A stretch of DNA of 64,000 nt from Rhyzopertha dominica. Lineage: Eukaryota; Arthropoda; Insecta; Coleoptera; Bostrichidae. The position numbers and the translations under genes were made by a program. The notes beneath the pieces were generated by a model, which worked only from the letters and a program-made list of their open reading frames with translations, ran no database searches and was not told the origin of the DNA. Below are positions 159-62,181 of the stretch, one piece after another (the first letter of the stretch is position 1; the number at the start of each line of letters is the position of its first letter). The stretch is from the NCBI GenBank assembly GCA_025024175.1, contig QCXZ01000086.1:20116245-20180244 (forward strand), given 5' to 3'.

Positions 159-3100
159 CATCAGCTCCAGAGCTTTGGTCTCGATCTCGGCCTTGGTGAA
201 TTTGGCGCGAAAGTCAAGCGGCTGCAAACACGCTTCCATAGTCTTGATCCAGTTTCGCAGGCACTTGACTTCGTGATCGATATCTAGATTGCAAATTTAC
301 GTTATTGACGCCTTGTATGGAAGAGCGCGTGACCTCACCTAAGCAAGTTTCTTGTTTGCACCGTCCGCAGTCCGAAGGTCCCAGGATACTCAAAATCGAG
401 TCCCATTTCGAGTTCAAGTGTGCCAACCTCCAGTTCACCTCCTCGTGCACTTCGGGATACAGCTGCACGAGATGACTAGCTTGTTCGTTGAACAGTTTCC
501 ATAAGGAGCTCTTTTGTAGAACTGTGCTTCTACAGTGCTGAAAAATTACTTCCTTCAGATGGATTTCTTTCGAGGCCCGTTTACCTAGTGCTGCCTACTC
601 GTATCGAATAGGTTCGTTATTCAAATACAGCAGAAGGAATAAATAATTCGTATTCGTTTTATTCGCGAACTTGTAAACGAACATTTATATTAGTTTTATT
701 CGGAAATCAATAATGTATTTGAATAAATTTATTGGGTTTTGAATGCTATTCGCTTCCGGATTTTATTTGTTTTCAAATTTTATGCCTTTTTTAATAACTA
801 ACAGATATTTGTTTTTAAATAATATCCGTCGTCAAACAAATAATGTTAGTGGCGAAAAACGAAATAAATATGTATTTTATGTAGTTTGGGAGTTTATCCA
901 CGGCAGCTGCCTTCGTCCTCAACCTTAACCAAAAAGCAACAATAAAACAAATTGAAATCTACAGTAATTATTCCCAGAAATAAGAAATTGCAGTCATAAA
1001 GCAGTTTAAAAAAACAAATGGACTGGGAATGCAGTTAAATAAATTACTTGCCACATCTAACGGATGGGAAGTATTGTATCGCGAAAAAAATTTTCAAAAA
1101 TTTTTATTTGCTCATTCGCTTTAAAATGGCCGAAAACGTAAAAAAACACAATTTGAGCAAAAAATTTCTTGTCTGTGGTTTTGTTTGTGGACACGATAAC
1201 TTTCGAAAGACTTAATATATGAACTTCAAATTAGGCACACGTATCGATCACAACTACCCAAAGCGACCTATTGCTTTTGTGGTAAGTAGGGTATCAGGAA
1301 GGGGGCGAAATTTTTGCAAATTTTTATTTTTTTATTTTTTTTTCGTTTCAGTATGTGATTAGTAGTATAACTGCGAGTATTATTCGCCCTTATAAATTTT
1401 CGGTGCAGCAAATTGTTAAAAGATATTAGCAAAAGAGCGTCACTTAAACAAAACGGTTTTTCCTAAATATCTCCGAATATATTTAATATATTCAAAAAAT
1501 GAAAATACCATCAGATAAAAAATAAAATTTCTCACAAAAAGTGTGACATTTTCGAAATATTTCCAAAAAACATATTTTGGTCCCCGTTCGTATGATTTTT
1601 TTTAAATTTTGGTATTATATAGGAAATCAAATTTCTGATTGGAAAGCACCTTAAATTTTTTTGTTAAGTTAATACTTTTCGAGTTATTTGGAAAAAATAG
1701 ATTTTAAAATTTATGTATTTTTGCTAATATCACGAGGGCCGTGTGTCTTAAAAAATGTGTAGAGAGAAAAATGCTCAAAACCTGATTACTAATCGTATAG
1801 TATAAGAAATAAAAACGTAATTGTCATTTTGACAATTTGATGTGGAAGTATTGATTCCATTTGCAGCGGTTTTTTGCGCATGCATTACCCAGTGTAAAGT
1901 TTACGAAAGCGTAGTAGGGCCACGTACATTTTTATTCGCTACAAAGTATGGAACCAGCAGGATTTCGGGTTCTATTCGACCGATTTTTCAAATTGTGAAT
2001 GGGCCCATGGGTAATTAAAATACATTTTCTGGAATTTTTGCAACTCCGTGTCAGCTCTCGTTTCCGAGATATGGACGCAAGTTGCATTTTTTTAATGGGA
2101 AGGGGAGTCAAAAGGCACATCAATGAAAAGGATATTTTTCCTTATTTTAAAAATGTATAACACTTTTACAATTTATAGCTTCCGAGTTGAGAAAAGTGTA
2201 AATACAATAAATGAGCCTAACAAAGAACGAAAAGAATGAAAGCAATTTTCTTTTTGGCTAAAATGGACAAAAAAGCCAGGTGTTATCATTTTTCCTTGAC
2301 TGGTGATAATTTTCGCCTAGGTTGATCAATTTATTGCGAATCGGGTACCCTAAAAGTAAAAAAGAAAAACATGGTTTCGTGAAAATGCTGTATTTTTTCA
2401 GATTTACATTACAGAAGAAGCTCAAAATGTTCCCCATTTACTTCCTGGCAGGAATGCAGTCTTAAGTAAAAGTTTTTTCTAATATTCTTTGAAGCATATT
2501 TGGAGGTAAGTTCTGAATTTCTGACCTGATTCGTCCTTTTAAATATTCTGCATTATGTGGCCGATTAGCATAAATACGATTTTTCAGATACCCCCATAGG
2601 AAAAGATCAAGTGGCGTCAGATCAGGGGAACGTGCTGGGCATTCTATCGCTACGCGCCTACCAATCTAATAATCTGCTCACCGATAATACCACACCACAT
2701 ATTCACTTTCTGCGGGTGTTGTGTGTGGAATTGTTCCATCCAATGTGGATTTGTGTCTCACCAATATCTGCAATTATGTCTATTCACATTACCATTGAGG
2801 CAAAAGTCGCTTCATTAGAAAACATAATCAAATTTAAAATGTTTCTTCTTCTTCTTCATCTATCATGTTCATAGCAGTTTCGCAAAATTCTATCCTACAA
2901 TCGAAATCATCTTCGCTCAGTTCTTGTAATAAGTGTATTTTATATGGATGAAACTACTCTTTTTTCAAAATTTTCTGAACAGATCTTCTGCTAATATGGT
3001 GACTGAGAGCACGGTGTTGTACGGAACACTTGGGATTCTCTTGCACATCTAAAAGGACATTCAAGCTACTTTCCGCACTCGTAGCAACCTTTGGAGGTCC

Positions 3101-4473
3101 TGGTTTTTGTCGATTTTTAACACCGCCGGTTTCGTCAAAACGTTGCAATGTTTTAATAACTGTTAATCTAGCAATTGGTACACGATCTTCATGAATTGCA
3201 TTGTAGAGTGCAACTACTCTCGAATAACTTCGCCTTCTGTCTCCATAACCAATCATCACCAAAATTTCGATGCGATCATGTTTAGTTAACTGAGGCATTG
3301 CGATTGCAAATAACAAAGTGAATGAAAATTATCACCAGTCACGAGAAAAATAGAGACATTGGGAGTTTTTGTTCTTACTTAGCGATAACGAAAATGGTTT
3401 TTAACCCGAAGTTTTTTTTGCAAGACCCAAGTTTGTTATCACACTTTTCTCAACTCACAAGTTTTACAAATGTGACACTTTTTTGAAATCAGGAAAAAAT
3501 ATACTTTTCAGTGATGTGCCTTTTGACGAGCCGACACGGAGTTGAAAAAATTCCAGAAAATGCATTTTAATTACCCATAGGCCCATGCAAAATTTCAGAA
3601 AAATCGGTCGAACAGAACCTGAAATATCCTGCTGGTTCCATACTTTGTAGCGATCTTGTATATTGTATATTGAAATTTGCTAACAATAAAAAGCTGTTTC
3701 TTCAGCAATTAAAAATTACTTAAATTTGCAAATGTCGCGTTTAGAAATTCGTGTATAAGCTATAATAGTATAGTAAAAAACAAGTGTTGCAAACACACTC
3801 ATTGTGATACGAGTGGTATGTGACAAGATATGAATATTAATAATAAGCGAATATATTCCTTTTCTAATAAAATAAATGCGAATATATTCGGTTTGCTACA
3901 TATTCGAATATCGAATACAAGGATTCCCAATTTCGAAGGAACTAGTTAATACTTACCGCTCTTAGGGCCTTGTCCGTTATATTCTCCTCCTTCCCGTATA
4001 TAGCCTCCTGAACGCTATTCAACCAGGAATAGAGTTCGGAGAACTGTGCGTAGAATTCTTTCAGCGACCAAGTGTAACTGGTTCCTACGGCCAGTTCACC
4101 GTTCGCCTCCTAAAAAGTCCGAAATTACCACGAGAAAATCGATGAAATCTAAACACGAACCCGACACTTATCAATCAGCTGATTGTCCATTATGTAGTTG
4201 TAGTTGGCTTGCAACGCCAACCAAAAGTCGTCCTTTTGGTCGCTGGCGCTGCTACCCCAGGAGCGCCTCCACATCTTGTTCTCCTGTTTCCTGTTCTTTG
4301 TCAGACTGTTGTACATTCGAGGTTTGTCAGTTTTATCGGGGGTTTCGCAAGCTTGTAGGGACGAAAGCGAGAAGCTCGCCTTCATGGCCGAGTTTTCGAA
4401 ACCTGTGAATTGAAGCATCAGTTATAAACAGTTACGGAGCATCGTTACGAGACTTACTGGTTCCCACTGGCAT
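159..4473 (-). CDS. Spectrin-repeat-like protein, 5' part of gene (partial)
   Basis: Five coding segments can be joined in frame on the minus strand: 4473-4458 (putative start exon, five codons plus one base), 4402-4161, 4109-3957, 537-339 and 283-159. Each internal boundary has an AG acceptor and GT donor, and the phases agree (1, 0, 0, 1, 0). The ATG at 4473 follows an in-frame TAG five codons upstream. The product is rich in charged and helical segments with regularly spaced Trp and Leu, for example FWLALQANYNYIMD, YTWSLKEFYAQFSELYSWL, VNWRLAHLNSKWDSI and HEVKCLRNWIKTMEACLQP, which is the pattern of spectrin-type triple helices. This suggests a cytoskeletal or LINC-complex linker such as a KASH/nesprin or klarsicht type protein, but I could not settle which. 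The last donor (gtaagc at 158) shows the gene continues past the left edge. Intron 3 (538-3956) contains an R1 repeat and a DNA transposon. Confidence 0.62.
1041..1875 (+). repeat. Repeat family R1, copy 1
   Basis: About 835 bp, highly similar along its length to 18263-20398 and 34101-34984. The family has short inverted ends: the left end reads like TACTTCCACATCCAA and the right end like TTGGATGTGGAAGTA. This copy's left end is slightly mutated (ttgccacatctaac). No long reading frame is conserved among the three copies, so it is probably a non-autonomous DNA element. It sits inside an intron of the spectrin-like gene. Confidence 0.75.
1925..3662 (-). mobile_element. Tc1/mariner-type DNA transposon with long inverted ends, copy A
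   Basis: Both ends carry the same inverted sequence: cgctacaaagtatggaacca from 1937 and its reverse complement ending at 3654. The inverted similarity runs inward for more than 300 bp (1937 to about 2310 against about 3325 to 3654), with gaps. Between them, on the minus strand, lies a broken transposase. The outermost bases seen in copy B (TATACCGGG) are recognisable only on the right side here (TATA at 3659-3662). It is the same family as 12064-13382, in opposite orientation. The whole element lies in the large intron between exons 3 and 4 of the spectrin-like gene. Confidence 0.75.
2345..3316 (-). pseudogene. Broken transposase of copy A (helix-turn-helix N-terminus, DDE remains)
   Basis: The readable N-terminal part (3316-2954) has the arthropod transposon helix-turn-helix signature with IGYGDRRRSYSRVVALYNAI and TLQRFDETGGVKNRQKPGPPK, followed by a HHISRRSVQKIL segment; this resembles the DUF4817 class. 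Farther along the minus strand are out-of-frame remains of the catalytic part, including the ARSPDLTPLD-like block near 2640. Compared with copy B a central piece is missing, around 2680. Frameshifts, stops and the deletion make it non-functional. Confidence 0.7.
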
Positions 4474-31839: not shown

Positions 31840-34800
31840 CTACTGACGATAGGTCGGCATTGTAACACTATTACCAGGAGTGACATAGTCACCAATCATC
31901 AAATTTGCACTAACTGGGTAGTTCGCCATTACGAGCGGCTGTTGCTGGAAAAAAAAATGTGTTAAACAGTTAATGTTTACATTCTTCATGCTTAAATTAA
32001 AATTTAAATATTCAACACTTGCAAGTTTTATACTTATACCACTTTGGTTTTCTACATCACGCACTAGCCTCATCGCAGGGTATCGTTTTCTAGCCTCTTG
32101 TTTTAGAACAAACTTGATTTGTTTAAGTTACTCAAAATTCTTGGGTTTTGTGTGAAATGATGGATATGTAGGCATAAGTTGTACCATAATAAGCTGTTAA
32201 ACTAACATTAAAAAAATTCTGAACAACCCTATTAACAGAATATGGTGGCAATTAGTTTTTCTTGTTCTTCATTAAGGAGTAAATATTACGTGTACATGGT
32301 AATGATACAAATTGAAGAAGACAAAAGTCGGCATCCAACTATGAAGCAATATTTACTATATGGGGTAAGGTAAAAAATATTTACAAAAATTAACTTTATT
32401 TGCAAAATATCATAATGTGCAAAATTTTCTTTTGGACACCCACTATGCCATTTTTAAAGTTTAAAAAATTTTACATACAACGTAAGGTTGTAGTAAAAAA
32501 ATAAANAAAGTAGGAGCCTGGGAAATTTTAGGCGGCAGACCCTGTATATATTTTCCGATTTGAAGCGAAACAGCACTTATTAATTGGACAAAGCAGGTTG
32601 CCATTTACCTAGGGTTAACTCAAACAACACTGTGCGTCAGAAGCCTGATATCTGACAGTTCTGTAATCTTTAAGGTTAGTTCCTTTATAAACATTTAAAT
32701 TTTCCGCCACTATTTTGCCCTAAAATGGCCGTCTATTGTGGTACTATAATATATTTAGTGACTTAACAGGAAGCACTGCAAGCTAGCATCTGCTGGCCGC
32801 GTGAACTTGGCAAACACATCAAAAGCACTAAAGGTAAAATATATAGTCGTTTAGTGCTTCGTTAGCGCTTCAGATATAATATTAACGGCACCGGCCATTT
32901 CCGAAATATAAGCGACTTTCTAAATTACCTGCCAACTTCACACTAGCAGACATTTATTAAGCACCAACGCTAAAACTGCTGTATTGGTGCTTTATGCTGC
33001 ACCATTTGCCGTATCAACAGCACAAGCCGTTTTCGAAAAATGAGCATTTTTGCAACTTAGACGCTAACTTCACATTTATTGGTACACTTAAAACATCAAC
33101 TGCTACACATTGTTCTGAAAAATAGTAGCGAAATTCGTAGTTCATACACGGCTTCAAATGGTCTAGAATTTTTTTTAATGCATCTTGAAACCTGATCTTT
33201 TTTGTATTCGATGGATGTTATTTGTCACTGAATGTGTTAAAGTTTTAAATGGAAAATTACATTTCCTCAGATGCTTTCCAACCTTTTAATATCAATGAAC
33301 TTTTATGCTTAAAGAAATATTGTTAATGGATATTTTCTAACTTGTTATGCTGTACTAACTTAGGCTTTATTTCTTCTTTTAGATTAACTCTCTGCAATAG
33401 AGGTGTGAATTGCTCAGACACAGCACATTTTTTCTGATTCACAATTCACATAACAAAATCAATGTTAGTGTTGCTGCATTAATCAAGATTAAGATGTCAC
33501 TACATACTATGTCAGTTCTTAGTTTGCTTTTGATACATGTACATTGGATTCTAAGGTGCTTCGGTCACACATAAACCCATTAGCTGTTTCTAACTTATTG
33601 TATTAAATATTATTTTTGGCGTAATCGTGGGCTTTCTTCAAATATAAAAGATCTAAAATGTGTTTCTGATATTTATTAGTTAAAGATGCATCCTTATAGT
33701 AGGTAGTCCAATTTTGTAACGTTTCATTCCCATAAAGGGTGATTTGGTTTTCAGATCTCAAGACATGCATCCATATTATAAGACAAATGTGAATGACAGC
33801 ATAGATATTATTGAATAAGTAACTTAGCATATCACACATGTCAGACAGCGTAATCGAATGTGACTGTTATTGTTACTGTAGCAAAGACTGCAAAACAAAA
33901 TATGCATAAGTGTAAGGTATGTTCGAACTAAATTTATTAAGGATTATGTTGTAATTTGAATTTTTTTCTATATTTTTTTTATTTATTATTGAGAGTGTTA
34001 AAATACAAAAACTACATAAATATTCTATATTTGAGTGATTTTGATGTACTTTTACTTCTCTAAAGAGGATATATTTTAATATATGTATAAGTAACAGCAT
34101 TAAATTACTTCCACATCCAACAGATGGGAAGCATTGTATCGCTAAAAAAATTTTCAAAATTTTTTATTTGCTCATTCGCTTTAAAATGTTCGAAAACGTA
34201 AAAAAACTAAATTTGAGCAAAAAAACTTTCTTGTCTGTGTTTCTGTGGTTTTGTTTGTGGACACCATAACTTTCGAAAGACTTAATACATGAACTTGAAA
34301 TTTGGCATACATATAAATCTCAACTACCCAAAGCGACCTATTGTTTTTGGGTTAAGTAGGATATCGGGAAGGGGGCGAAATTGTGGAGAAACCACCCTTT
34401 TTAAAAATTTAATTTTTTTATTTTTTTCGTTTTTAGTATGAGATTAGTAGTATAACTGTGAGTATTATTTACTCTTATAAATTGTCGGTGCAGTAAATTG
34501 TTCAGAAGATATTAGCAAAAAAGCGTCACTTAAAGAAAACGGTTTTTCCTAAATATCTCCGAATATATTTAATATATTTAAAAAATGCAAATACCATCAG
34601 ATAGGAAATAAAATTTCTCACAAAAAGTGTCTTAGAAAATTTATCCCAAATTTTGACATTTTCGAAATATTTCCAAAAAACCTATTTTGGACCCTGCTCG
34701 TATGATTTTTTAAAAATTTTGTTATCATATAGAAAATCAAATTTCTGATCGGAAAGCATTCTTGTAATTTTTTTGGTAAGTTAATACCTTTCTAGTTATT

Positions 34801-40800: not shown

Positions 40801-43800
40801 CCAGTATAATGGTTAGATTTAAATTTGGCGCCATTTTTTATGTTTAGTTAACATTTCTGTAACAATTATTTTCATTACCCATTAATAAAAAATATGGAAT
40901 TGTTATTAAATCTAAAAGAAAACACATTGGAAACAAATTTTGGTTTCTCACAGACGTCGTCAAAACTACAGGTCATTCTAAAATTTGAGCACCATCTTAC
41001 AGCCATAAGATAACGCATGGGTTATTAGGAGTATAATATGCAGTGTCCTATAATTTATGCAATAAACTTTGCAGTTAACTACATGAATTGTAGGTTTCTA
41101 TGATGGTTTATAGCAAATGAGATTTTATTTTTTTTATAGTGTTAGTCAGGTTACAAAATACCAGGTATCAGACGGAAAAGTCCAACTTGATTCAGAATTA
41201 CTATAATATTGTTGGTGATGAAGCTAGAGAGCCTTAGAAAATCTCTTACGAAAACCCACGGATCGGTGAGACAGACAATCAAGATTGTGAGTGATCGTGC
41301 AAAAGCTCACTATGATACAATGGGCAATCATAGTCAGTTTAATGAAGATCAAGTGTGGCTATACAACCCCCAAAGAAGGAAACGACTCTCGCCTAAGTTG
41401 TCGTCATCGTGGGGAAAGAACTTGCAGACTAGTGAAAAAGATGAACGACATGGTTTATAGAATCCAGCACGGCCCAAGGTCAAAGATGAAGGTTGTACGT
41501 CTGAATCGTTTCACCGCCACCTAAGTTTCTTTGGTAAGTTGATACATTGCATGGACAGTGCTTGTGTAGTTTGTGAAACCATACTGATTTGTTGATAGTA
41601 TATTGTTTACAAGATGATGTGTCAGGTTTTGCAAAAATAATTCTAATAATTATCACTCAAAATTAATTACTGACTGCTTAAATTGTGGTTAAACTATTCC
41701 TGTTGTAAAAAATTTGTTAATTATATGTTTTAAAGGCTTGAGTACACATATAAGAATAGACTTTATGGTATATATGCTGATCTTGCCTATCCCTGGGCTA
41801 CAGTTATTTTCTAAGGTTTTATATGTATAATTAATTGATCAACTGCAACTGGTGTTGGGAATATGGATTTAACAGGTACCGAATCTAACTTGATATAATT
41901 TGTGTTCTGACTGTTCACATATTTGCTGTGTTTTTGTCATCAAACATATATGACTGTTTTTATTGATCGGTATCACCGCTGAAGACAGTATGTGTGGCAC
42001 CGAAATGTACATTCAGTTGTTAAATAAAACATGACTTCACGATCTGTTGCATAATTCAGAATGAATTGAGAATCGAAAAAGCATTGCCTTCACCTTCGAT
42101 TTTGTCATAAGATTCTTTTTTTGCCAATGAATCATACTGAAAGCTCCAAATTTCGTCACCCACAATGATACTTAGCAAAAATCCACATACATAATGGCAG
42201 CCTCAATGAAGTCTTTGCACCCATGTAGGCACTACATGGTAACATGTCAGTCTGTCCAGAGCAAAAAATTCGCACAATTCCTTGAGAATTGAAAAAGCAT
42301 TGCCTTCACCTTCGATTTTGTCATTAGATTCTTTTTTTGCCAATGAATCATACTGAAAGCTCCAAATTTCGTCACCCACGATGATACTTAGCAAAAATCC
42401 ACATTCATAATGGCCGCCTCAATGAAGTCTTTGCACCCATGTAGGCACTACATGGTAACATGTCAGTCTGTCCAGAGCAAAAAATTCGCACAATTCCTTG
42501 AGAATTGAAAAAGCATTGCCTGCCTTCACCTTCGATTTTGTCCTTAGATTCTTTTTTTATTGCCAATAAATCATACTGAAAACTCCAAATTTCGTCACCC
42601 ACGAGGATACTTAGCAAAAATCCACATTCATAATGGCCGCCTCAAGGAAGTCCTCGCACCCATGTAGGCACTACATGGTAACATGTCACAGTCTGTCCAG
42701 AGCAATAAATTTGCACAATTCTTTGAGAATCGAAGCAGCACCTTCCTTCACCTTTGATTCTGTCATTAATTCTTTTTTTTTGCCAATGAATCATACTGAA
42801 AGCTCCAAATTTCGTCACCCACGATGATGCTTAGCAAAAATCCACATTCATAATGGCCGCCTCAGTGAAGTCATCGCACCCATGTAGGCACTACTAACCC
42901 TTTTGCTTGTGTTAGGAACAAACTGGACACACCTTCCGCATGCCTAAATTGTCATGCATAAACTTGTGCCCAGTGCCTACAGCAATATTTTTTATACCAA
43001 CACTTAAATAACCATTTCCATATGCTTCACGTATCATACTATACATTATACTCGCAATCTTAGATTTTTAAAACAAAATTTATTGCAACATGTTGCTCCA
43101 TTTTGTTAATAATGTCCCAGAGGTTACTGAGCCAAATGTGTTACTTAATTATTCCAAACGTACCCAAAATAATATTGAGACATCTAAAATATCAACATAT
43201 CGTAAACACTGATATCATATCATATATAAGCAATTCAATATATCACAATAATTGTGCGGACTTAATAAATAACATCAAATCAAAATAAATTTATTACAGC
43301 AGAAAAAAGACATACATAATTGCAAATTAACAAAACATAAAATTAACTTTTAAGAAAAAATAAATAAAATATAAAACAAATAAATTGCCATTATCTGATA
43401 ACTTACCTAATGCTGTTTTTCAAGGATATCAGTTACACATTAAATAATTATTGTGCATCTAACAACATTTTCCTAACATGTGATTTCAATGAATATAATG
43501 GCAACTATTTAAACCCATCTGACTATTACACTCAGTATATAGGATGTTTAGGTACCTCTATCAGTTTGTGCACCTTCCTTACATATAATTTTGTTATAGA
43601 GATATACTGGTGACTTATTAATTAATATTTCAATATATTAATACTGTAAAGTGCTCTCAATGTTTAAACAATTCATGTGATGAATATAAATATATATATA
43701 AATATACATATGATCACACCCTAATTAAAACAATAGCGTATACAGGTATTTTGAATTTTTTGTAGACTGTATGGATCTACTTTAAGTGAAACTTTGGTAA

Positions 43801-46800: not shown

Positions 46801-49800
46801 ACAAACAGGAGCACATTCTATGATAATAATGACTATGTCATAAACATGTGGGGCAATAAAATTTGTTTTCTTTTTCATGAGATAACCGAAGTAAACAGAT
46901 GTACAAAAAAAGAAATGTAAAGGAAGCATGCAGCTACAATATGGCTCTGATTGCAATAATTTATATTTGCTACCATACCTTTTCGCCAATAATACTGAAA
47001 TTTATTTACTAACAAAAACCACAAAGGCAGTAAGAACTTGAAATTCATTCATTCCAAAAAATAAATAAGATTGACCAAGTGTTTAAAAATATATAATACG
47101 AGGGTAAATCAATAAGTAACAAGACAGATTGTTGTAGCTCGAAAACCGTTTAATTAATCATTGCAATACTTTCGGATTGTCAAGTTGGTATCCTTGACAT
47201 GTGGCTTTCCGGGCTGCTTCTCACGTTGCTTATTTGACCTTGACGTTAAGTAGCTCTGAAACAGATTCAGAGCTACTTCTGAGGAAGATACCGTCATGAG
47301 TGTCGAAACGTCAAGGTCAAATAAGCAACGTGGGAAGCAGCCCAGAAAACAACATGTCATCAGCAAAAATGAAAGCCTTCAAACCAAAAGTTGGTATCCT
47401 TGTAATGATTGTACTGCAAAAGAGCAACGTGCAGTGATTAGATTTTTAGTTATGCGTTAAATGAGTTGCGTAGTGTAGTTTACGAGAAAATCACACAACT
47501 ATTTGAGTGTAACGTAGCCAATCTGATCTACATACCAAAAGTTTGCCTTGCCATACTGCTCCATGTACAATGACTCATCAGTGAAAGGAGCAATGTGTAA
47601 ATCTCCGCGGGACGGGTACATTTTACCACCAGGCACCAGCCACTTCTTAGCGTGTAAGTAAGTCTCCAACATTCGCTCATTGTACAGCATGTATCCCATG
47701 GGTTCAGATATAATCACATCAACCTTTTCTGGCAGTTCTATTTCTTCTATCTTACCAGCGATTACTTTAATGCAGTCTTGAAGATTATTAGCTATTACAA
47801 GTTTCTACAAAAACAAATATGAGTAAAAGAGACTTAAGCAAAAACAAGTGTCTCACTTGAGCAAAATGGGCCATCGATGAAGCCTCCACAGCATACACNC
47901 GCCGGGCACCTGCCTGTTGTGCGAAGAACGACAAAATACCCGAACCAGCCCCCACATCTAACACTACCTTATCCTAAAAAATACATTTCAAAATTATTAT
48001 CCAGTTTGTCGTGTGATTTTATAAGAAGGTTTGACACATTCATGTAGAGATAGTTTTTAAAAAATAGGTTTTTGAATTTGGAACTACTCCATGACGTGCA
48101 GTCAAGAACCCATAGCTAAACCTGACTTTGTGTAAAATAACTTCATTATTTTAAATGGAATTACATCTTAAATGCTTTATCAATTTAAAGATCACTTTAT
48201 TAAGTACACAGTGGGTCTAAATCAACCGTTAGGGCATAATTCGTGTGAAAGTTTTAACGTTTGCAGTGGTTTCTAAATAACTATTTACATCTAAAATCAA
48301 ATATTCATTCATCAACTAGATATAGCTTAAAATTTTCGAAAGCTGTAATGTTGTTTATAAAAATAGCAATCATTAAAGGCCAATGACTAATTTTTTAAAT
48401 AGGAAAGTATAATTATTATATCACTGATAGACAGAGAATTAAATTTTCATTTTCTTGATGTAAACTTAACCTATCCATCTTTAATAGTTTTCACAGAATT
48501 TTAAAATAATTATTCAAATAAAAAATAATTTTTGATTTACCACATATTTAAATTAGACTAAAAAAGTATAAATGTAACAGAATTTTGGGAGCAAAAATTA
48601 AAACCCTTTCAAAAATAAATTCTTTACTGACCGAAATTCGTTTTTATCAAAATGTAGCTTTTTATAAGACAAGCCCTTTTCAAAAATTCACAGTTTTGTC
48701 ACAATTGAACTTTTGGATACCAAACTTTGACAGCCTATTTATAAAACATCATAGATGTTACTATAGAAATGAATAAAATTTTTTTACTGGAAGTTGCGTC
48801 TAGACCAACTAGCTATGTTATTTACTTTTCAACATCCTCAAAAAAACACAAATTAATACTAGATGAAATAGTCAACAGAAAATTACCATGACCATCCCAG
48901 ACGAGATTGCATTTCTAATTAAGGAGAATCAATACACTTTACAAATGTGGAAAGAACTAATAAAAGTCATGAAAGCTATAAAAAATGATTGCAATATCGC
49001 CTAGAAACTAATGCTGAAAAATATTTTTTTTATTGACAATAAACTATTGCTTTATAATTCATGGTTTTAGTTATATAATCGTTTCTAACTTAAAAATTTT
49101 TGTCACCGCCCTGTGATACAGTAATGGGGCACCATTTGGCATCTTGAGAAATAATGTTCTCTTCATATGGATGAAAACACAAAAGAACATATAGAAAATA
49201 TTGTCGTAAAGAATTCCAAATTTCAACAACATCTAAAATTACTCCAATGCAATCTACACCATAATTTAACGTGCAAATAAAATCGCACATGACGTAGACT
49301 AGTAATATCTTAATATAGTAAGTTAGAATATTGTGTTACTAACCTTAAAATCGTTAGGATTATTCACTATGGCCCTCTGATAGCTGTAAGTTCTAACGAA
49401 GTCTTGTAACATGTTTTGTTGTTGTGACAAATACCCATAAAACTGAAAGTATTGTGTGGCAGACGAGTCGTCCGTTCTGACTGAAAATACTGAAGCGCCT
49501 CGTCCTGATTTTACTACAGCTATGGCTAAGGTGATCTTCCGCATATCTGTAAAAAAACGAAGTACTAAATGTATGTACTTACGCCACCTTACTCCACTCA
49601 CCTTCTTTACTGGCAAATTTAAATAGGAGGGTTTCATTGTCTAAGTTGAATATATATGATTGAGGTCCAACCTTACAACAATCCGAATTGGGATGTATAC
49701 CGAATTCCATCAACGTCTGGCCATTATCTGCATCAAACAAAACCAGCAGTGTAAAATATACAAATGGAAATGACAAATCACATACATCGACAAACGTTTG

Positions 49801-57934: not shown

Positions 57935-58980
57935 TGTATACAGGGTCCGCCACCTAAAACTCTTCAGGCTCGTATTTACTTTATTTTTCTAGGTACAACC
58001 GTAAGTTATATGTCAAATTGTAGGTCTTTTTAACCTCTTTAAAAATAGAATATTGGGTGTCCAAAAATTTTTTTTGCAGATTATCATATTTTGCAAATAA
58101 AGTTAATTTTTGTAAATATTTTTTAACCTTACCCCGTATAATAAATATTGCTTTATAGTTGGATGGCAGCTTTTATTTGCTTCAATTTTTGTCTTTACCA
58201 ATTATGCGTAATTTTTACTCCTTCTTAATGAAAAACAAGAAAAACTAGTCGCCGCTATTTTTGTTAATAGGGTTGTTCAGAATTTTTTAAGTGTTACTTT
58301 AGTAGCTTATTACGGTACAAATTATGCCTACATACCCATCGCTGCACACAAAACCCCAAAATTTGGAGTAACTTTTTAATAAATAAAGTACAAAGTTTGT
58401 TCTACAGAGAGACAGGCTAGGAAATTAAACCCTGTGACGAGGCTAGTAGGCAATGTAGAAAACCAAACTAGCCTCATCGCAGGGTTTCGTTTTCTAGCCT
58501 CTCTCTCTGTAGAACGAACTTTGTACTTTATTTATTAAAAAGTTACTCCAAATTTTGGGGTTTTGTGTGCAGCGATGGGTATGTTGGCATAATTTGTACC
58601 GTAATAAGCTACTAAAATAACACGTAAAAAATTCTGAACAACCCTACTAACAAAAATGGCGGCGAATAGTTTTTCTTGTTTTTCACTAAGAAGGAGTAAA
58701 AATTACGCATACATGGTAAAGACACAAATTGAAGAAAATAAAAGGCGGCATCTAACTAAAAAGCAATATTTATTATACGGGGTAAGGTTAAAAAATATTT
58801 ACAAAAATTAACTTTATTTGCAAGATATGATAATTAACAGAAAAAAATTTTGGACACCCAATATTCTATTTTTAAAGAGTTTAAAAAGACCTACAATTTC
58901 ATATACAACTTAAGGTTGTAGCTAAAAAAAATAGCGAAAATACGAGCCTGGGGAGTTTTAAGTGGCAGACTATGTATACA
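57935..58980. repeat. Foldback element, two arms of about 510 bp
   Basis: The left arm 57935-58446 and right arm 58468-58980 are near-perfect reverse complements. The outer ends are TGTATACAGGGTCC and GACTATGTATACA, and the spacer is 21 bases (58447-58467). Each arm carries AAAAAATATTTACAAAAATT-like and CTACAGAGAGA-like blocks. No reading frame. It lies in a TADA3 intron, so TADA3 pre-mRNA should contain a hairpin of about 500 pairs. A single diverged arm is at 32050-32552. Confidence 0.88.
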
Positions 58981-60872: not shown

Positions 60873-62181
60873 CGAGGCATGTTTTTTAAGTAAGTACCGT
60901 TTTGGAATTAAAAAAAGGCGTGCAAAGATATTGCAATAATATTATCTTACATGAAAGCCTGTACCTTAATCTACTTTTCTACATAATTTCCATGAATATT
61001 GAGGCACTTGTCATAATGTGGCACCAATTTTTGAATACCCTCCTCATAAAATTCTGCCGCCTGACTTGTTAACCACTGTATCACAAATGTTTCGACTTCG
61101 TTATCGTCTTGAAGACGCTGACCACCCAGGTGTTTCTTCAAGTGCAGGAACAAATGGTAGTCGCTGGGCGCCAGATCAGGGCTGTATGGAGGATGATCTA
61201 GAGTTTCCCATTTAAAAGATTTAATGAGACCTTTGGTCCGATTAGCCACATGTGGACGGGCATTGTCATGCAGCAAAACGATACCCTTACTCAACTTGCC
61301 ACGTCTTTTGTTCTGGATTGCATGACGCAGATTGTTCCATTGATTGTCTCATTACGAGGCAGAAACTCCACTAGCAATACTCCTTTTCTGTCCCAAAAAA
61401 CTGTGCACATGATTTTCCGGGCAGAAATTGTTTGCTTAAACTTCACTTTTTTGGGTGATGATGAATGTCGCCATTCCATGGATTGTTGTTTCCATTCTGG
61501 TGTGATGTAGGCCACCCATGTTTCGTCACCAGTAACAATTTGGTCCAAAAAATCTTCACCTTCATTGTGGTACCGCTCACGGAAAGTCAATGCACTGCCT
61601 AAACGTTGGGTTTTGTGCAAATTCGTCAACATTTTCGGAACCCAACGTGAACACAATTTTCGGTAATTCAAGTTCTCGGTCACAATGCGATACAAAACAC
61701 TACGAGAATATTGAGGAAAGCAGTCGCACAATGATGAAATTGTAAAGCGTCTATTTTCTCTCACCTTTTCGTTCACTTTCTGCACCAAATCTTCATTAAC
61801 GACCGAAGGACGCCCACTCCGTTCTTCATCATGCACATTTGTGCGGCCATCTTTAAATGCTCTCACCCATTTCCTTACCATTCCATCACTCATAATGTTT
61901 TGTCCGTAAAGTTCACAGATCTCACGATGAATACCGGTCGGTTTTACGCCTTTAGCACTAAGAAATCGTATAACAGCCCGCACTTCACAATCGGCGGGTC
62001 TCACGATTGTCGGATGCATCTTAAACACTCACTAAACAACGTATAAAATGAAGAATCAAACTGTAATGGCGTCAGTGCGTAGATAAGAGATGTAGGTAAC
62101 CAGCGCGCATGCGCGGAACGCCGACCGTAGCGCTGCGGCGGCGGAATCGCAAAACGGTACTTACTTAAAAAACATGCCTCG
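60873..62181 (-). mobile_element. Mariner transposon, both ends intact
   Basis: 1309 bp with inverted ends of at least 28 bases: CGAGGCATGTTTTTTAAGTA at the left and its reverse complement at the right (TACTTAAAAAACATGCCTCG, ending 62181). TA dinucleotides flank it at 60871-60872 and 62182-62183. The length is that of a full mariner. The interior is a single transposase gene on the minus strand with one lesion. It lies in a TADA3 intron. Confidence 0.92.
60971..62028 (-). pseudogene. Mariner transposase (DD34D) with one frameshifting lesion
   Basis: The first frame, 62028-61291, has the helix-turn-helix part (VRAVIRFLSAKGVKPTGIHR), GRPSVVNEDLV, WVPKMLT and the first catalytic Asp in TGDETW. 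The second frame resumes before 61294 and ends at 60971; it has the second Asp in LLHDNARPHVA, and SPDLAPSDYHLF with the third Asp exactly 34 residues later. The frame shifts near 61345, right after ETIN and before the LRHAIQNKRRGKLSKG block, and a few codons usually found there are missing, so a small deletion is likely. Apart from this all catalytic residues are present. Confidence 0.88.

Follow-up and report, generated by a model that had tools for sequence, protein, structure and literature searches.

Head-to-head inverted copies of a leader are a known product of Penelope-like elements (PLEs). The available portions of the rotifer work describe PLEs with inverted pLTRs, palindromes at the junction, a one-sided tail of 31 bp and target-site duplications, as well as solo pLTRs, some of them without target duplications; self-priming, rather than two cDNAs, was proposed by the authors for the palindromes (PMC3846280). 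For a PLE of the anole, an in vitro report describes a protein that extends both target strands, reverse transcription from two internal sites with a 30–40 bp tail made of the sequence between them, and mutants of the ribozyme motif that still insert (PMC11167929). Minimal PLE hammerheads lacking helix III have been described as well (PMC7761336, PMC6155905), and, according to the title of a 2017 paper cited in both PMC8490949 and PMC10085705, such minimal variants cleave as dimers.

The locus compared with these systems here lies in a window of 64,000 nt from Rhyzopertha dominica (contig QCXZ01000086.1, positions 20,116,245–20,180,244, assembly GCA_025024175.1). As the original prediction had stated, an insert of 191 bp (47197–47387) is flanked on both sides by a perfect 15-bp repeat, AAGTTGGTATCCTTG (47182–47196 and 47388–47402, without strand), and the final TG of the left repeat is also the element's own start, since family copies begin with TGACATGT. 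The left arm, which has no tail (47195–47247, minus strand), is the reverse complement of a PLE leader up to family coordinate 53, and its inner part forms the 5' strand of stem III. At the arm–arm join (47247/47248, plus strand) the insert is 28 nt short of a full palindrome, and cleavage at GUU/A is predicted after 47247. The palindrome is centred on 47263 (plus strand), the A of TCAGTT and predicted +1 of the PLE mRNA, with TATA at −30 in ORF-bearing copies. The right arm (47264–47359, plus strand) corresponds to the PLE leader from +2 to +97 and holds the hammerhead core and the presumed first PLE codons; it is followed by the one-sided tail between two presumed reverse-transcription start sites (47360–47387, plus strand; 28 nt long, against 30 nt in the consensus). 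No second copy of the insert was found in the window by BLAST.

The host gene context is an exon of a CARM1-like arginine methyltransferase in an open frame (47499–47804, minus strand), about 120 bp from the insert; since the gene is transcribed from the opposite strand, the strand that carries the ribozyme runs antisense to the CARM1-like transcript. That the insertion split an older mariner remnant, as had been proposed, is plausible but weak, given a TIR-like stretch at 47098 and a 14-column similarity with an E-value of 0.03. Elsewhere the window contains a mariner-type transposase frame of 245 aa with Transposase_1 and Mos1-type HTH domains (61291–62028, minus strand), a palindromic stretch of 1,046 bp that matches its own reverse complement at 90% (57935–58980, with related sequence at 32043–32551), and a tandem array of 3.8 copies of a 216-bp unit with 92% matches (42066–42894).

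In a computed fold, the plus-strand RNA of the insert forms a three-stem type III hammerhead. The insert folds at −101.9 kcal/mol, whereas 200 shuffled sequences give −43.6 ± 4.1 (z −14), and mean pair probabilities in a context of 601 nt are 0.95 for stem I, 0.85 for stem II and 0.999 for stem III. Stem I (13 pairs) is the hairpin AAGTAGCTCTGAA-ACAGA-TTCAGAGCTACTT (47248–47278), made by the palindrome around the predicted mRNA start. It is followed by the core CTGAGGA and one extra A at 47286 (47279–47286), by stem II (5 pairs, GATAC/GTGTC, 47287–47304), whose loop CGTCATGA contains the presumed PLE start codon (47296–47298), by the core GAAA (47305–47308, with A15.1 at 47308) and by the 3' strand of stem III (47308–47343), all on the plus strand. 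Stem III is long and open, as predicted, and pairs with 47211–47246 over 36 pairs when A15.1–U16.1 is counted, against the 35 claimed. The elements that define type III are present (three stems, CUGANGA and GAAA cores, an NUH site and an open stem III), so that the claimed hammerhead fold holds; the claim had passed over the additional A between A9 and stem II, which makes the core CUGAGGA-A-GAUAC.

A fold that has these stems and keeps the core unpaired has an ensemble probability of about 0.05. The bare core pattern occurs once in the window against 0.05 expected, and at least one match was obtained in 5 of 100 shuffles, which makes it weakly significant. The full type III descriptor matches nowhere in the window but here, the other strand giving no match; 100 × 128 kb of random sequence, generated with the dinucleotide frequencies of the window, gave none either. 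A covariance-model search with Rfam, whose failure the original prediction had named as counting against it, returned no hammerhead at the gathering threshold in the whole window, none at E-values up to 10 on stretches of 801 and 108 bases from it, and none on the PLE leader of an ORF-bearing locus (L081). The extra A and the lack of an Rfam hammerhead weaken the picture of a textbook hammerhead. To go by a title in the references of PMC6155905, a comparable extra residue occurs in a viroid hammerhead.

The insert belongs to a large family. A search of the window's own assembly (479,159,283 bases in 138 contigs) gave 1774 candidate places, and all 40 that were scored match the insert, 32 of them spanning both of its ends (start at query base 18 or below, end at 205 or above). 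Together with 10 places out of the 150 scored in a search with the leader peptide, these 40 bring the leader arm to 50 distinct places (51 loci, as L002 and L042 are the same place); because most copies were picked by their similarity to the window copy, statistics on arm length are biased. Joins and duplications were tabulated for 43 of the 50 places, leaving out two with a single arm (L032, L087), four with an ORF attached (L080, L081, L082, L086) and one whose left end was not located (L084). A typical copy, as judged from an alignment of 30 copies, is a palindrome of a 96-nt arm and its reverse complement with a tail of 30 nt on one side. Among the 43 measured, all with both ends present, L007 and L020 keep the full palindrome and 41 have one arm truncated, at 37 distinct joins. 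Target duplications, called at a score of at least 10 with one mismatch allowed, accompany 38 of the 43; when flanks of different copies were paired instead, 200 shuffles gave 0.115 on average and never more than 1. The predicted retroposition with target duplication holds. Their lengths differ among copies, with scored matches of 11–19 bp that include letters common with the element. The proposed genome-wide search did find further copies with duplications.

Divergence from the consensus, determined for 39 copies, is 0.5–5.9% in 36, 7.3% in L019 and 11.1% in L040. The window copy differs by 7.8% (15 of 192 sites) and is rather old. Very young copies are already truncated at the join (L016 at 0.5%, L008 and L012 at 1.0% from the consensus), and some truncations could be DNA-level deletions of a perfect palindrome. 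In the first set of 31 copies, the left arm was truncated in 25 and the right arm in 4, with 2 undeleted; a preference for truncation of the left arm was dropped as a probable ascertainment bias, since the right arm is truncated in all four measured copies from the leader peptide search. Two copies on a single contig (L024, L031), oppositely oriented and separated by about 9 kb, have the same target duplication and the same join, and probably represent one insertion copied within a duplicated segment.

The arms vary together. At family position 41 they agree in 35 of 40 copies (19 T/T and 16 A/A) and are discordant in 5, so that the co-variation asked of the stem arms does exist; copying from a template suffices to explain it. 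As both arms would be copied from one template, selection on structure is not needed, and the long stem III, judged from its sequence, is best described as pairing between two copies of one leader. Co-variation of arms copied from one template is therefore, as a caution, no evidence for a selected RNA structure.

The complete hammerhead depends on the particular join of the window copy, which lacks family positions 54–81, the 28 nt complementary to the core. This loss joins GACGTT to AAGTAG and thereby places a GUU cleavage triplet beside the closed stem I. Among the 43 measured copies the join is found in the window copy only, and a genome scan with its 21 letters at up to three mismatches, which copies diverged at more than three letters escape, returned the window itself and two matches with three mismatches (one match in the reversed control). 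On reading, the latter two proved unrelated, leaving no second instance of the join in 479 Mb. Since the join is absent elsewhere in the scan and in the measured copies, the complete hammerhead is probably not the spreading unit, and the central claim of the original prediction, a retroposon built around a complete hammerhead, is left unsupported. This hammerhead is probably an accident in one rather old copy, assembled from PLE parts. Joins end at p = 53 in 3 of 41 copies and at q = 82 in 1 of 41; if the two ends are independent, a few such joins would be expected per genome among 1774–3516 candidates, an order-of-magnitude estimate from a biased sample that includes the window copy itself. 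In viral contigs, pattern scans matched once, by chance and within a phage gene, and three others were empty.

The parent of the leader can be approached through its coding part, as the right arm is an open frame from the ATG in loop II. The arm's consensus peptide of 31 residues has 3516 candidate places, and the 150 scored all match at 100%; the open frames at these places measure 41 to 265 aa, hence no scored place lies within an intact full-length PLE frame. The predicted link to a Penelope-like element is borne out by four of the ten loci from this search (L080, L081, L082, L086), in which seven arms lie behind the end of a PLE-like frame. In L081 the frame directly precedes the arm, its best five blastp matches are PLE C-termini (28–32% identity, E 1e-26 to 1e-30), and GVYGIPC...VYIGQTGR was spotted in it by eye; GIY-YIG was not called by Pfam in four frames tried from L080, L081 and L082. 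A reverse transcriptase frame in L082 (RVT_1, E 5e-8; best five PLE protein matches 36–40%, E 1e-30 to 1e-34) is located on the inverted partner and continues into the C-terminal sequence found ahead of the arm in L081. The loci examined yielded no intact full-length parent PLE.

The seven arms of these four loci also indicate where the leader begins. In all seven, TATAAATA starts 30 nt before the centre A. The arms are preceded by TATAAATACCCGAG, and the distance from its first T to the A of TCAGTT or TCAATT downstream is 30 nt; in 7/7 arms that A, at family position 97, is the palindrome centre. The palindrome centre is thus predicted to be the start of the PLE mRNA, of a TATA/Inr type. A separate search with PF01541 gave 144 matches (2080 candidates, 150 scored) with many PLE-type frames, and the window's leader was absent from 30 of these loci of about 3.2 kb each. 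Several GIY-YIG frames are paired on opposite strands (minus, then plus), up to a few kb apart (e.g., C64:33819030-33823046), and appear to be another abundant PLE family with inverted architecture. PLE proteins of at least 780 aa in the database were considered as parents and rejected, as they start without the leader peptide when compared by eye and hence belong to other families.

We consider it probable, at about 0.82, that the insert is an ORF-less product of a PLE in which two leader cDNAs were joined head to head, with the hammerhead arising accidentally. The PLE mRNA would start at the Inr TC[A]GTT, 30 nt below the TATA box, and its leader would hold the core-and-stem-II part of the PLE hammerhead together with the first codons. 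The PLE protein would open both target strands, and two internal sites separated by about 30 nt would each give rise to one cDNA, the cDNAs beginning at mRNA positions +97 and +127 and both extending to the mRNA 5' end. Imprecise head-to-head joining of the two cDNA ends would then yield a palindrome centred on the mRNA start. In the window copy, the tail-less arm would have ended at ...GACGTT and resumed at AAGTAG..., omitting the 28 nt complementary to the core; GUU would thereby come to stand before the closed stem I, and the paired arms would serve as the long stem III of a complete type III hammerhead. On this model it would follow that the tail is one-sided, that the outer ends are fixed, that the centre lies at the predicted +1, that an ORF is missing and that the joins vary. 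We infer the two-cDNA mechanism as well as the start of the mRNA and the accidental origin. In a variant mechanism, a single cDNA would fold back and prime itself, which is compatible with the data because many copies, including that of the window, keep up to 24 nt past the centre.

The arms also bear on the state of the template. In none of the 41 truncated copies does an arm end within 1 nt of the predicted ribozyme cut (+50), and arms extend beyond it in 38 on the left and in 41 on the right; as the arms pass the predicted cut, templates seem to be mostly uncut by the ribozyme, in a sample that favours long arms. This is a lead, and it agrees with the in vitro report on the anole PLE (PMC11167929).

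A DNA fold-back or MITE-like palindrome that later lost bases near its centre, with an equally accidental hammerhead, is improbable. Two copies, L007 and L020, are full palindromes, as such an origin would have it, and long palindromes are unstable in DNA; against it stand the varying length of the target duplications (scored at 11–19 bp), the one-sided tail, the arm behind a PLE-like frame elsewhere in the genome, and the truncation of copies within 1% of the consensus.

Still less probable, at long odds, is a non-autonomous retroposon or retrozyme that spreads by way of the complete hammerhead RNA, as thought for animal retrozymes, which are held to use circular RNA. The small size, the target duplication and the hammerhead fold would suit such a unit, and the insert resembles animal non-LTR retrozymes, described in the accessible text as short non-coding units of 150–450 bp with hammerheads and target duplications of more than 4 bp (PMC7229834). 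The retrozymes described there carry type I hammerheads in tandem repeats, whereas here the scan of 479 Mb turned up a single complete hammerhead, present in one of the 43 copies measured, and that in a rather old copy, 15 of 192 sites off the consensus. With the join absent from the rest of the genome scan and from the other measured copies, the idea of a type III element that is under selection or propagates was discarded. Retention of the ribozyme for a host function beside the CARM1-like exon, to which the intact core and stems of a diverged copy might point, has hardly any probability, with the ribozyme strand antisense to the exon and no type III descriptor match on the other strand.

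Returning to the joined leader cDNAs of a PLE, the inserts share with the rotifer Pen families (PMC3846280) and the anole Poseidon (PMC11167929), as far as the accessible portions of these texts describe them, the head-to-head inverted leader copies with a junction palindrome, the AC-rich one-sided tail (optional there, 30–40 bp), the target duplications and the hammerhead core with a start codon at stem II. Unlike the PLEs described there, the measured inserts consist of the leader only, lack an ORF, reach a high copy number and have a predicted TATA/Inr start at the centre of their palindrome, and the hammerhead of the window copy is complete. Its core, stem II and GAAAC appear to be derived from a motif such as the minimal PLE hammerheads, from which the window copy differs in having apparently gained stem III and a predicted intramolecular cleavage site from the inverted arm. 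Like the HDV-like RNAs of termite and toad and the hammerheads of termite and fly genomes, it is a type III hammerhead in animal DNA with an unusually long helix; in those, as the available text describes them, helix I is the long one and pairs with loop II through an internal loop, in contrast to the long stem III here (PMC7936874).

The insert is thus most likely of a known kind, a PLE insertion product, and a byproduct of a known jumping gene rather than a new mobile element. In open-access texts without their supplements, no earlier account was found of leader-only inserts in high number, of a palindrome centred on a predicted transcription start, or of a complete type III hammerhead assembled by a join; such forms may have been noted in other papers.

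It is conceivable, if rather unlikely, that head-to-head joining of leader cDNAs is a recurring route from core-only PLE hammerheads to complete, cis-cleaving type III ribozymes, and that the window RNA cleaves after 47247; if true, such joining could supply new ribozymes and retrozyme-like units. As modelled here, the case would show that an inverted retroelement join can assemble a complete hammerhead from parts. The family outweighs the window insert in importance: relatively little is known about the mechanism of PLE cDNA synthesis (PMC11167929), and young leader-only inserts are a genomic record of where PLE cDNAs start and end.
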